From Thelephora terrestris (lineage: Eukaryota; Basidiomycota; Agaricomycetes; Thelephorales; Thelephoraceae), in the NCBI GenBank assembly GCA_015956445.1, contig WIUZ02000004.1, forward strand, positions 124,001 through 188,000: a stretch of 64,000 bases of DNA, read 5' to 3'. A model generated the notes under the pieces. It was not told the DNA's origin. It made no database searches and saw nothing but the letters and a program-made list of their open reading frames with translations. Numbering within the stretch: the stretch's first letter is position 1; the number at the start of each line of letters is the position of its first letter. This document shows positions 22,024-29,142 of the stretch, one piece after another. Both the position numbers and the translations under genes were made by a program.

Positions 22024-23310
22024 ATGCTGCCATACATACCCCGGAACGACCCTTATGCAAAGAACATTTCGATGCTGGAAGGCGGGTTGATCTCCGTGGA
22101 TGGTCAGTGTTTGAATTCTGCACCCACTCAACTGATCCAGGACGACCACCAGGTGCAAGGAAGGCGATCGAGATACTCTCACAGAAAGACACTGTCGCTC
22201 ATTTGGACCTGAGGCATAACAAGCTGGGGGATGAAGGATGTATCGTACTCTTCGAGTACCTCCGCTCAGAGGCAGGACGAAGGCACGAGGTCGCTAGAAT
22301 CCTCTTGGGTGGCAACAACCTCGGGAACGTGGCCTTGGAATCCATTGGAAGTTTTTTAACATGTTATAAATGGCTAAGAGAGTTGTATCTGGCGAACGTA
22401 AGCCTCAACATCCTTACTCATCGTAGTCCTGATCGTAGCACTGCTGACTCTTCGGTTCCATCTACAGAACAGTTTCGTTGGCGACTCGAATGTCATTGAC
22501 TCCTTCACGGAAGCACTCAATTCTTCGTCGCTGATTTTTCTATCACTGACCAGCTGCGCTGGGCTTTCTGATGCCTTCGCGGAAAGGTTCTTTCCTCGCC
22601 TCAATTCTCCTCATCTATCGACCCTCGCATTGTCAGCGACCCGCTTAACACGCACCGCCGTGCCGCACATCATCGAGTATCTATCTTCACCCCGTTCCCG
22701 CCGCCTCGCGACGTTGAAACTCAGCGGAAATAGCCTTAGCGTGCGAGGAGCTTCGAGGGTCGTGGGACAGATAAAGCGGACCAATTTCAATATAACGAAC
22801 CTGGATATGTATGGTGTCCGCACTCATCTGGGCGGCCAAGACGACTCTAGCGAAGGTACCTCCAGCGATAGTTCTGCATTTGCCATAAAGTTCGAGGAGG
22901 ATCTACGGCACACCCTTACCAGGAATGACCTTCTGCAGAGGCACACACACGCATCAGCTTTCCGGTTACTGCGGTACTCAAGGGCATTGTTGTTGAAACC
23001 GAGGAGAAACGAAGACGAGGCCAGTGGAACCCCACTCCATATACAGCACCTCCCCACGGAGCTCCAGCTGCATATCCTATCCCTCACCGTCGACGGCTTG
23101 TCCGCGAACCAACGTATTCGTATCTTCCAGTTCGCTTCGGACCCCAAGACCCTTCCCGAAATTCTCCCTAATCTCCGGCGAAGGCAATCAGAAGGGATTC
23201 CTGGGCCTAGCCTTCGAGAGAAAAGTATTGCACCGTTTACGTTGTCTCCTCGTGATGTAAATCGTACTAAATGGTTACGAACCGTTGGTTGCGACCTTTA
23301 CGAAACCTGA
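22024..23310 (+). CDS. leucine-rich-repeat (RNI-like) protein
   Basis: Three exons (22024-22102, 22141-22397, 22468-23310) sum to 392 residues. The repeats are of the ribonuclease-inhibitor type: AHLDLRHNKLGDEG, ARILLGGNNLGNVALES, LRELYLANNSF, STLALSATRLTR, LATLKLSGNSLSVRGAS and ITNLDMYG. After the repeats comes a charged stretch, then LPTELQLHILSLTVDGLS, which resembles an F-box-like Leu-Pro-x-Glu-hydrophobic motif placed unusually at the C-terminal side. The protein is likely an adaptor for protein-protein contact; substrate or partner is unknown. It ends 118 bp from the stop of the convergent amidotransferase gene. Confidence 0.8.
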
Positions 23311-24834: not shown

Positions 24835-25697
24835 ATGTCGCTCGCGAAACTCACCTCCCTCTCGACGCAAACACTTTCTCTTTTGTTAGAACGCCAGCGC
24901 ATACAGTCATTACCAACTTCCCCTGGAGCATCCGCATCTTCATTACATCTACGACAAATCACAAAGAACCTGCAGCAACTGCGGGCCGGAATTCTCGAGT
25001 TGCGCCAGACCGATGGGTCTTTCTCTGAGGCAGCGAACCTGTTATCTGGTCAATACGACCGTATGAGGGCCATGCTTGGCCCAGATGCGGACGCCAATGG
25101 TATAACAGTGTACGTTTCAAATTCGGTGCCCGTCCATCAGCCGTGTTGAGCGTGTCTAGTTTGGAACGGCCGATCCCAGAACCACCCACCGCTTCTTCAC
25201 CTCCAAGAGCACCATCTCCTGCACCAGGTGATATATTCACCCCCTACACGGACGACCCAGATGGCTCGGGTTATGAATCAAACGAGATGATGCTCCATAG
25301 TCAGCGGCGCATTATAGATGGTCCGTAATCGCTCCACGTGTTGTTCTGCTGCATGGTTTAAAGTTACCTCCCAGAGCAGGACGGCCATTTGGAGCACTTA
25401 TCGCAATCAATATCACGCCAACATCACATTTCGCTGCAGATCAACGATGAGCTAGATACGCACACCGGGTTGCTCGAGGGACTCGATCACGATTTGGACC
25501 GGACTCAGAGCCGGATGAGTAATGCGAGGAGAAGGTTAGAACGCGTGGCAAGAGGTGCCAAAGCAAACGGTTGGTTTCGCATGGCAATACATGTTCCCGC
25601 TTGAGCTTATTTTACCGCTATCCTCACAGGCTCATCGGTTACAATCGCTCTCCTGATTCTGATATTGTTGTTGTTGATAATAATCCTCAAAACGTGA
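24835..25697 (+). CDS. Qc-SNARE, syntaxin-8 / Syn8-like
   Basis: t-SNARE light chain of the endosomal/vacuolar fusion machinery. Four exons (24835-25109, 25160-25320, 25375-25569, 25630-25697) sum to 232 residues. An N-terminal helical region (LTSLSTQTLSLLLERQRI) and a Pro-rich linker precede the SNARE motif: HLEHLSQSISRQHHISLQIN, then LLEGLDHDLDRTQSRMSNA, where the Gln before SRM is the likely zero-layer residue. The protein ends in one TM anchor (VTIALLILILLLLIIILKT) with no luminal tail. It is tail-to-tail with the nucleotidyltransferase gene, 101 bp between stops. Confidence 0.88.
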
Positions 25698-25798: not shown

Positions 25799-28700
25799 TT
25801 ATGAGCGGTTCGCTTGGATTATAGCTGGTGCTCCTCTCCTCCCTCCTCGGCCGTTCGGGCGGGCGTTACTGCTACCTGCACGTACCCCAGAATGTGGAAT
25901 TCCAGGTCCAGGCCGTACATTCGGTTTCTCAGCAGGTACCCTCTTCTCCTGTTCCCGCTTGTCCTGGACGTTGTTTGTTTGCTTCTTTCCCTTGGCCTTT
26001 TTCGGACGACCAGTAGGATTGTGCCAGACTGGATGTTCCCTTGATAGAATCGACTCCAGGGATATTCCCAGTTGCAACATTCCCTCGGTGTTTCTGCATT
26101 CGTGAACGAACCGAGTAAAGACAAACTTCTTGATCTGACCAGCGCAGTTCTGTAGCAAGTGGGCGCTGAGCGAATATCACTGCGATCGAAGGATCCTCAC
26201 CTTCGCGACGATGAATGGATCCGCCACACACATAATATTCTTGGACCAGTCAGCGTCGAACGATTCGTCTGGCATAACGTCCTCGTCGACTTCTTCATCC
26301 TGTTCATCGTTCAACAACCCTTTCTCTTCGATCTGCTTTGACGTCGAGGCGACGGGGTTTGGTTTTTGTAGGGCACTCTTTCCCTTGCGTGGGACTATCC
26401 CGCCCCTTCGTATGCACGCTATAGATTCGTCGTAATCAAATTTCCAGCCCCAGAACCTAAGGTCACTCAGTCAACGCCAGTTTAGAGGAATATAGATAGA
26501 CGGTACCCGAGCCATTCAAAAAACAGCTCTCCTGCTGATTTTCCAGTGTGGACCGACCAGTCTTCAACTTTCTCGAACCTAGTATCACATCTAAATCTCT
26601 CTCCCTTCCTATTCTTTACCCAAAAGTGGTCTGTGGGAGAAACGCCCTTTGTGGACACGTTATCCTGGAGGTTCGGGAGCCATCCTAATGACTTGTGCGG
26701 GACTCAGCCGGTGTAAACTGTTCTTGTATCGGCGACCTTACTTGAAACCACGCAATCGTCATAAGCGTAAGCGCATAACTGCTGAATGACGCCGGCCGCT
26801 TGCTTGGGTAGTTTAATCCTGTACTTTTCGCCCAACGTTTGATCAACCGCAAAAGGGGGATCAATACCGGTTGTAGTGACACGTAGTGCTTCATCAGGGA
26901 TGTGTTGATGAAGCCAAGTTGGTCATTGACGTTGATATCGCACTCCAGCCCTGTACTAGGGTCCTTGAACTTCACTGGGAAGAATGGGTTCGACTAGGGA
27001 AGCGGGAAAATGAGATGAGACTTGCCTATCGGGACGTTTGCGCTTGGTATCGGCAAAACGTTTTCGAGGCCGGCCCTCTGTAGTGCGCGAGCTACGTTCC
27101 TGTAATGTGGCATTTCAGTCCTCCGATGGGGGGAGATCCCGGATGCGACAGACCTTACATTATAGATAACTTGCGAGCTGAGTGAGTCCCAGGTTCCCAG
27201 ACGATCCACAAGATGTAGGATACACTTACAAGGTAATTTTGTCAGATCAAGACTCGGTGAAAATCCATCCATACGGTTCAGGTCCTGGTTGAAGTTCAAT
27301 GAACAGGATGGGCTCAACTAAAAGCCAGTCCTTACCACTATCACAAGGTCGAGGTCGCTTGTGGGGGTATCCACCCCGTAAGCGGTGCTTCCAAAGAGTT
27401 CAACTCGGTAGCGGTTACCGTAGCTCCGAAGGACCATGTCTTGTACCTTGCGTATGGTTGCAGACCTTGCACGTATCACATGAGGTCTGGTAGGATTCAT
27501 CTAAGGGTCAATCATTAGCGGTCTCACCTCATAGCTAATCGGACCTTACCTCGTCTGGGAGTATCAGTCTCTGCAAGGCATCCGCCGGACCGCTTGTTTC
27601 GATTCCGAGTATCTCTATCAGCGAACGGCCTGCGTCTATCTTTCCGGTTGCAACCTGGGAGTTATGCGCAAGCGTATCGACGGTGTGAACGGAGACGAAC
27701 TCTGCATGATTCTGTACAGGATGGTTAAAACTTTATCCAGTATCGAGCGGTGAAGCCACTGACGTGGGTATACATGAAGGGATCTTGGACGACCAGTGGG
27801 TGAATCTTCCACAGCTGAGGAAGTTGCATAGAAGCGTAAGGGATGTCTGCCAACTTGGACAGCAAATCGGGAAGCGATTCGACTGTTGATCCCAGGTAGG
27901 GGGCCAAATCTCTCGGAATCTTCTTCCTAGTGCCAACGGAAACGACAGAAGCCTTGTGGTTTTTGGAGATACGATTAAGGTAACTGGGTGTCGACAGTCA
28001 GCTACGGCGCGTGCGCACCGGCATGAGGTACATACTTCATGAAGTTGCGCAGCAGACGAGATTTATCCGGCTCGGTATACTCGGCGCTTTTCGTTATCGA
28101 AAAATCCGTCTCCAATGCTACAACCTCATCTTCCCATTGGCCATTACCAAGTGAGATTTCGTGGACTGCCCATTTGCACCCGGTTTTTGAAAGGTGGTAC
28201 TGTTTGCTGTTGTAGTCGCTGATGCCACTTGTGGGAAATGTGATGCCAGGCGCCCCAGCGGTTTCCTAACGGTTATGCTCAGATGATAAGAAAAGGGATG
28301 GAAGATGATCATACCTGCAGGAACGAGACGAACAAAAGCGCTAGGCATGTGGGGGATATTTCGTTCATCCCCAGGGAATGACACCAGAGGTATGAAATCG
28401 AGACCAGATCACGAAAGGCAGGGGAGAGTTCGGAGTACTTTTCAAGCATCCGTACGAGGGGCACAGTGGCAGGGCCAGGGAGAATCAGATCAAATGCAAT
28501 GGGATGTTCAATGTGGAGACGCTCCGGATAAACCAGGCCTCTCCTGTTTAACCAGAGCCAGTCCTGGTCCTTGATATCCTCCGTCTGTGGACGAAAATAC
28601 TCCTTGGCAGCTGAGAACTTTCTCGTGGTGGTTCTTGATAAAGAGTGATTGCTTATGTATCCATGGAATCCTTCTTTTGCCAAAGCTCTTGCAACTGTCC

Positions 28701-29142
28701 TGGAAGCATCGTTCGACTTCAAGTATAGTGGGACGGGAAACGAACGTACAAAGGACAGTATATATCAGGAAGGTCGCTTGTGTAGTCTCTGCCAACGGTC
28801 CCGAGCTCACTCTGTATATCCTGCGGGGCAATACGTATGTCAGTCTTGTCAAGTAGAAAAAACCAATACGTACTATGATGGCAACCTCAAACGGTGCTTG
28901 CTTTATGTTTCTGGCATAACGGCCAAGGCCTACGTATTCGACATCAAACCCAGAGCCGAACCGTTCACCCACTACCTCGACCAAGTGGCCCAGGAGCTCA
29001 TGTCGTGCTTGCACGACCGCTTCTGAAGGTTTGAAATGCTACGAGATCAACATGAGATGGTATTCAGATGGTCGAACAATGGGCTTACATCGAGGAAGAG
29101 ACGAATATCTGGGCTGTGATCGGGCTTCAAGCTACGGTTCAT
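25799..29142 (-). CDS. Cid1-family nucleotidyltransferase with tandem catalytic modules, the first inactive
   Basis: Non-canonical poly(A)/poly(U) polymerase adding nucleotides to RNA 3' ends. About 14 introns. The second module is canonical: VELFGSTAYGV with SDLDLVIV (Gly-Ser and two catalytic Asp), IYNVRNVARALQRAGLENV, third Asp in ECDINVNDQLG, LIKRWAKSTGLN and the PAP-associated part ending ADPFIVAKNCAGQI. Upstream in the same reading frame lies a second, diverged module: VEYVGLGRYARN with APFEVAII in place of the Asp pair, LPDIYCPLTVARALAKEGF, then LPGPATVPLVRMLEKYSEL and SPTCLALLFVSFLQ, and its own PAP-associated part (QLWKIHPLVVQDPFMYTH). A Lys/Arg/Gly-rich tail suggests RNA binding. 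The start is the ATG at 29142 (MNRSLKPDH), 249 bp from eIF3l. Confidence 0.87.
26975..27025 (-). other. GC-AG intron in the nucleotidyltransferase gene
   Basis: The join ANVPI-VKFKDP demands a 51-nt intron whose donor reads GCAAGT rather than GTAAGT and whose acceptor is CCCAG. GC-AG introns are a known minor class, about one percent in fungi. Confidence 0.75.

Follow-up and report, generated by a model that had tools for sequence, protein, structure and literature searches.

A tandem nucleotidyltransferase gene in Thelephora terrestris with a predicted active second module and a first module altered at its catalytic residues

The window analyzed here is a 64,000-nucleotide (nt) stretch of the Thelephora terrestris genome (contig WIUZ02000004.1, positions 124,001 to 188,000), taken from a 60-contig assembly of 40.6 Mb. 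The genome has 43 matches to DUF6533, a family characteristic of agaricomycetes. On its minus strand, at 25799-29142, lies a gene that encodes two nucleotidyltransferase modules in a single reading frame. The second module is predicted to be an active enzyme, and the first aligns with it as a diverged homologue in which the catalytic Gly-Ser and Asp-x-Asp residues have been replaced. That this architecture is real is well supported by the gene model, the modules, the residue changes and the introns that both halves have in common, all of which are read from the sequence. We further consider it fairly probable that the whole protein is a Cid1/TUT-type enzyme that arose by duplication of an exon block and now combines a live C-terminal module with a non-catalytic N-terminal one. 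The features on which these statements depend are as follows (aa, amino acids).

25799..29142, minus strand: whole gene with two nucleotidyltransferase modules; hand-built splice model, 12 of 14 introns matched by a homology-blind dynamic-programming model
27550..29142, minus strand: module 1, aa 1-429, exons 1-7, catalytically dead by sequence; aligns with module 2
28925..28930, minus strand: G55-L56 (VGL) of module 1, Gly-Ser lost; sequence and alignments
28874..28897, minus strand: APFEVAII of module 1, aa 66-73, with P67 and E69 where the Asp pair is expected; aligned to SDLDLVIV
28489..28491, minus strand: D167 of module 1, candidate remnant of the third Asp; alignments disagree
27764..27766, minus strand: H375 of module 1 in DPFMYTHN, at the position of Cid1 His336; alignment columns (hhalign, MAFFT)
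27550..29038, minus strand: proposed duplicated block, exons 2-7, with a phase 0 intron at each end; equal lengths of exons 2 and 8, coinciding introns
27501..27549, minus strand: linker intron, 49 nt, phase 0, with an in-frame TAG and CTAAT at -18, ending in TTAG; splice model and homology-blind recovery
25799..27500, minus strand: module 2, aa 430-874, exons 8-15, predicted active; Pfam and PDB matches
27387..27392, minus strand: G466-S467 (FGS) of module 2; invariant columns in alignment A1
27336..27359, minus strand: SDLDLVIV of module 2, aa 477-484, with D478 and D480; invariant Asp columns in A1
26937..26939, minus strand: D546 (ECD) of module 2, third catalytic Asp; invariant column in A1
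26201..26203, minus strand: K758 of module 2 in DPFIVAKN, at the position of Cid1 His336 and CutA Arg557; alignment A1
25799..26068, minus strand: basic Gly/Arg-rich C-terminal tail, 19 K+R versus 6 D+E in the last 89 aa; composition count

Gene model and catalytic residues

The spliced coding sequence (29142..25799, minus strand) has 15 exons in our hand-built model and translates into 874 aa. Its 14 introns are each 49-59 nt long; 13 are GT-AG and one is GC-AG. Some of the exon joins were picked with the protein family in mind, and the model was therefore checked with a homology-blind splice predictor. It was given the start and stop, and otherwise worked only from a generic consensus, from intron length and from codon use in 24 other long open reading frames (ORFs) in the window. 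This predictor returned 12 of the 14 introns identically; the one that links the modules and all six within module 1 are among them. It placed two module 2 introns elsewhere and added one more, which would cut out a stretch of module 2 that is conserved in the family. The intron with the GC donor (27025-26975, minus strand; GCAAGT ... CCCAG) was chosen in the same form by both models.

A first-pass annotation of this DNA had described two modules in one frame across the interval, and the spliced model confirms it. If the linker intron (27549-27501) were not removed, then the module 1 frame would stop at the TAG inside it. Two adjacent genes could then be drawn, the first ending at this TAG four codons beyond aa 429 and the second beginning at its own ATG at 27500, immediately after the predicted acceptor. 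However, the gap from stop to start would be only 34 nt, and the stretch combines the usual length of 49 nt with a donor, an acceptor and a CTAAT that resembles a branch site. It is also called an intron without recourse to homology, and its position approximately matches that of the first module 1 intron (exon 2 and exon 8 have the same length, 165 nt). We give the division into two genes almost no weight.

Module 2 matches three Pfam families: PF22600 (MTPAP-like central; E = 2.1e-25, 89.8 bits versus a cut-off of 27), PF03828 (PAP_assoc; E = 1e-7, 32.6 bits versus a cut-off of 22.6) and PF01909 (NTP_transf_2; E = 1.7e-5). In the PDB it matches 39 distinct sequences at E <= 0.001, led by human TUT4 (3.4e-26) and TUT7 (6.4e-24) and followed by Arabidopsis URT1 and Aspergillus CutA. 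The Gly-Ser and three Asp residues attributed to it on first inspection are found as G466-S467, D478, D480 and D546, and all of them fall in invariant columns of alignment A1, which has five rows (module 2, TUT4, TUT7, and the Cid1 and Trf4 proteins of the same genome). The Gly-Ser, the Asp-x-Asp, the third Asp, the central palm and the PAP-associated domain that characterize Cid1-type enzymes are all present in its sequence, and module 2 is predicted to be an active nucleotidyltransferase. A weak MntA-like match within it (E = 0.04) is the sole NCBIfam match of the whole protein.

Module 1 is altered at the aligned places in just the manner that the first-pass annotation had pointed out. SDLDLVIV is replaced by APFEVAII, which puts P67 and E69 where the Asp pair is expected, and Gly-Ser becomes G55-L56, leaving neither of the first two hallmarks of a Cid1-type active site. 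Lys and Ser-Tyr positions common to module 2 and the family are also altered, as judged by eye from the MAFFT alignment. The third catalytic Asp may survive as D167, which MAFFT places in the corresponding column; in hhalign, by our reading of the printed alignment, this column holds P163 instead. No Pfam family matches module 1 above cut-off, and a sequence search of the PDB, taken as far as E = 10, yields nothing for it. The earlier statement that both modules keep the central and PAP-associated regions holds for module 2, where Pfam recognizes them, and was too strong for module 1, where they are seen only by way of the alignment with module 2. A match of module 1 to DUF4688 (E = 0.044) lay under the cut-off and was judged to be due to chance.

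Kinship of the modules and their shared introns

The two modules can be aligned from end to end at an identity of approximately 18-20%. Their similarity is detected by blastp (E = 4e-4) and by hhalign with a family profile that contains module 2 (E = 7e-5 over 314 columns), where the score of module 1 is 40.9 and that of the best of 24 control ORFs is 21.8. Global alignment of the whole modules under four parameter sets gives z-scores of 7.5, 8.2, 9.2 and 7.8, which rise to 11.1 and 11.6 for trimmed modules. In the same comparison the control ORFs (24 other long ones from the window) reach at most z = 1.8 versus module 2 and z = 2.7 versus module 1. By these alignments module 1 is a diverged homologue of module 2.

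The introns carry a second record of this kinship. When hhalign, blind to introns, aligns the modules through the family profile (two of three settings), five of the six module 1 introns coincide with module 2 introns in both codon and phase. This number was reached in none of 200,000 random draws, the best of which placed two of the six. Pairwise alignments under the four parameter sets bring 4, 4, 3 and 3 of the six into coincidence (0 of 200,000 draws each), and the equal lengths of exons 2 and 8 fit the same pattern. Of the introns examined in two other genes of the same genome, 10 in the Cid1 gene and one in the Trf4 gene, none shares its position with an intron of module 2; the nearest lies 6 codons away, and some joins in these two genes are approximate. 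Module 2 has two extra introns, at its codons 74 and 105, which may have been either gained in module 2 or lost from module 1.

In view of these coinciding introns, module 1 was probably born when a block of exons flanked by phase 0 introns was duplicated in tandem, and it then lost its active site. With a phase 0 intron at both ends of the block formed by exons 2-7, the reading frame would have been kept on duplication. The ancestor would have been a single-module gene that already carried the present exon pattern, and the duplication, a step backed by the common introns, would have produced two modules in one frame. The C-terminal module would have remained the catalyst, using its Gly-Ser and three Asp residues to bind Mg and nucleoside triphosphate (NTP) and adding untemplated nucleotides to RNA 3' ends as its family does. 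The N-terminal module would have lost its metal- and NTP-binding residues and stayed open and spliceable, and would therefore have been kept for another role. This role is most likely that of a docking or RNA-holding unit that chooses substrates or partners, as suggested by analogy with the first nucleotidyltransferase domain (NTD1) of TUT4 and TUT7.

Module 1 might also be no more than a decaying, functionless relic that is carried along in frame. Its identity of approximately 18-20% to module 2 and the blindness of Pfam to it would suit such a state. Against this, 429 codons in seven exons contain no stop or frame break (the chance with random codons is approximately 1e-9), and the splice sites are usable throughout. 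The GC content at third codon positions is equal in the two modules (0.555 in module 1 versus 0.549 in module 2). These features argue for a module that is still in use, and we regard the relic reading as very unlikely.

Several points weigh against an origin of module 1 by duplication of module 2 and its retention in a new role. The splice joins are predictions. The sixth intron of module 1, which lies at its beginning, either has no partner in the alignment or misses it by 1-2 residues. Fewer introns coincide in other hhalign settings: two of six with the profile when realignment is omitted (reached in 21 of 200,000 draws), and 2, 4 and 2 of six with module 2 alone (9, 0 and 10 of 200,000 draws). 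With a family profile from which module 2 has been removed, module 1 yields only P = 0.011 over 64 columns, at the expected place. In a sequence tree of 10 rows, where the module 1 branch has a length of 3.6 changes per column, modules 1 and 2 pair at 60/29, which is no real support. Finally, recruitment or binding by module 1 is putative. The lower-scoring hhalign settings cover less of the modules or are noisier, and the result from the reduced profile means that the kinship of module 1 to the family passes through module 2.

Nucleotide choice, genomic context and RNA interference

The UTP-selecting residue of Cid1 is His336, its counterpart in CutA is Arg557, and changing the His to Ala or Asn yields a poly(A) polymerase, according to the excerpted text of a study of these enzymes (PMC7498324). 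Module 2 has K758 at this position, and its specificity for UTP is consequently doubtful. The His expected of a UTP-selective terminal uridylyltransferase (TUTase) is found in the dead module alone, as H375. From these residues it would be premature to name the protein a uridylyltransferase, with A, C or mixed tailing as the alternatives; the Lys suggests that the enzyme probably does not add U exclusively. The Cid1 orthologue encoded elsewhere in the genome (L012, contig C59, minus strand) has Phe at the same position (DPFETDFN), and its nucleotide choice may be different too.

Genome searches found three Cid1-family loci, namely the tandem gene, the Cid1 orthologue on contig C59 (E = 9e-67 to Cid1 in the PDB) and a Trf4-like gene on contig C23. 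Because the gene on C59 is the Cid1 orthologue, the tandem gene is not. There are 13 Piwi and 20 RNA-dependent RNA polymerase (RdRP) matches in the genome, counted exon by exon and not as genes. RdRP-like loci occur on contigs C1, C34, C45, C56 and C58, and Piwi-domain loci on C6, C9, C12 and C34. These loci suggest that the fungus has a well-stocked machinery for RNA interference (RNAi).

A predicted terminal nucleotidyltransferase has been connected with RNAi in another basidiomycete. In Cryptococcus neoformans this protein, Rde4, is required for the production of small interfering RNA (siRNA), and deletions of rde4 and rde5 cause the worst siRNA loss of the five described in the excerpted report (PMC6643885). 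RDE4 is also among the RNAi genes that are shortened or absent in the RNAi-deficient C. deuterogattii, in the available portion of a second report (PMC8022950). The likeness to the tandem protein is one of description, as a basidiomycete predicted terminal nucleotidyltransferase, and the number of Rde4 modules is unstated in the excerpt (PMC6643885).

The tandem protein could be the agaricomycete counterpart of Rde4 and act in RNAi. The shared enzyme class, the severity of the siRNA loss in the excerpted deletion data (PMC6643885), the Piwi and RdRP exons and the presence of three Cid1-family loci all speak for it, but a priori the Trf4-like gene and the C59 orthologue of Cid1 are just as good candidates, and we hold this assignment to be a rather doubtful one. 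The genomic context weakly hints at a part in RNA surveillance or RNAi, with aberrant or repeat-derived RNAs as the likely targets of the tandem enzyme.

Elsewhere in the genome (L024, contig C9: 334809-335928) lies an RNase II gene whose signature, DPATAKDLDD, is that of an active enzyme. We take this wording of the signature to mark DIS3L2, and the gene presumably encodes an active DIS3L2; two further RNB genes of the genome look to us like Dis3 and Dss1. The general active signature of RNase II comes from a passage of a study of fungal RNase II proteins (PMC8097288). The same passage credits most basidiomycetes with Cid1/Cid16-like TUTases, and a tandem is unmentioned there.

One neighbour of the tandem gene is a divergent eIF3l/PAF67-like gene on the plus strand (approximately 29392 onward; PF10255, 1.2e-82), and by eye the two start codons are approximately 250 nt apart. 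The convergent neighbour (approximately 24835-25697, plus strand) is SNARE-like and small, and by eye its product ends in a hydrophobic stretch; the SNARE domain scores E = 1.3e-5 and 25.5 bits, just below the cut-off of 26.8. At 22402-23307 on the plus strand, a 302-aa open frame has no Pfam match at E = 0.001.

Comparison with TUT4/TUT7 and other relatives

The closest parallel to the fungal protein is the pair TUT4 and TUT7, which likewise have two nucleotidyltransferase modules per protein, the first inactive and the second active, and which are the top PDB matches of module 2. The first-pass annotation had drawn this parallel, and it holds at the level of residues; in the excerpted text of a human TUT4 study, NTD1 is missing its catalytic carboxylates and is proposed by the authors to derive from NTD2 by gene duplication (PMC6488673). 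The supposition that such a layout had not been described in a basidiomycete has also stood so far. No fungal dead-active tandem is described among the open-access literature matches listed, although orthologues may well be present, without a name, in fungal databases. A survey of TUT4 places it in most animals, and the words fungi and fungal are absent from its main text (PMC5509036). Scans of viral and prokaryotic contig collections, which with a single protein as query reach close relatives only and are not an orthologue survey, gave no relative: module 2 had no viral match and 21 prokaryotic pattern matches, and profile A1 had 12 viral pattern matches.

The two systems differ in several respects. 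TUT4 and TUT7 carry an N-terminal C2H2 finger and C-terminal CCHC knuckles in the excerpted description (PMC6488673), whereas neither pattern matches the 874 aa of the fungal protein, which have ten Cys in total. In TUT4 NTD1 the corresponding residues are Asp412, Asn414 and Arg468, so that the first Asp and the Gly-Ser are kept and the second and third Asp are lost (same excerpt, PMC6488673); fungal module 1 has Pro, Glu and perhaps Asp there, and has lost its Gly-Ser. Where TUT4/7 have the uracil-selecting His in their active module, the fungus has Lys. A Cid1/TUT profile recognizes TUT4 NTD1 with 95.6 bits and gives fungal module 1 only the P of 0.011 over 64 columns reported above. Fungal module 1 also shares introns with its own module 2.

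These comparisons bear on whether the two layouts are convergent or ancient. A single dead-active tandem might have predated the animal-fungus split, with module 1 as a very diverged NTD1. The PDB ranking of module 2 fits such a history, and so does the alignment of module 1 with TUT4 NTD1: its z of 3.7 comes top of the eight behind module 2, although values up to 2.7 occur among 24 unrelated controls. In the 10-row tree, alongside the 60/29 pairing with module 2, a grouping of module 1 with TUT4/7 NTD1 is not rejected (p-AU = 0.21). On the other side, module 1 aligns to module 2 with z = 11.1, the introns that these modules share are not seen in the Cid1 gene of the same genome, and the inactivating changes differ (PMC6488673, as excerpted). 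In addition, the NTD1 modules of TUT4/7 join their own catalytic modules in the tree (83/87, not starred), as separate duplication would give. We consider the ancient origin unlikely.

As the tree is indecisive, origin was judged by the introns. Together with the similarity between the modules and the different residues lost, they favour convergence: a common tandem ancestor of the dead-active layouts of the fungus and TUT4/7 is probably not shared, and the fungus has apparently reached its TUT4/7-like layout by a gene-internal duplication of its own. A broader proposition, which we put forward only tentatively and would not yet prefer, is that agaricomycetes re-invented the TUT4/7 plan with a front copy that serves as a non-catalytic reader of RNA or partners and keeps the His, and a working copy in which the His became Lys and the choice of nucleotide changed with it. 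The protein would then mark RNA as a machine of two parts, perhaps feeding RNAi. If the convergent history is true, then dead-plus-live tandem RNA-tailing enzymes evolved at least twice, and a non-catalytic twin would be a good way of giving a tailing enzyme its choice of substrate. The fungus would then offer a system for studying what the dead half does outside animals, to which the factors Lin28 and let-7 belong, and the common introns are a testable record of how the tandem formed.

The remaining relatives resemble module 2 alone. S. pombe Cid1 and Aspergillus CutA both match it in the PDB and have the catalytic core and PAP-associated region in common with it, but their solved chains contain one module. 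Arabidopsis URT1, a plant enzyme that likewise has one catalytic module in its solved chains, is pairwise more similar to module 2 than any other row compared (29% over 224 columns; z = 30.6), with the caveat that the URT1 letters used were those printed aligned to module 2, a choice that favours URT1.

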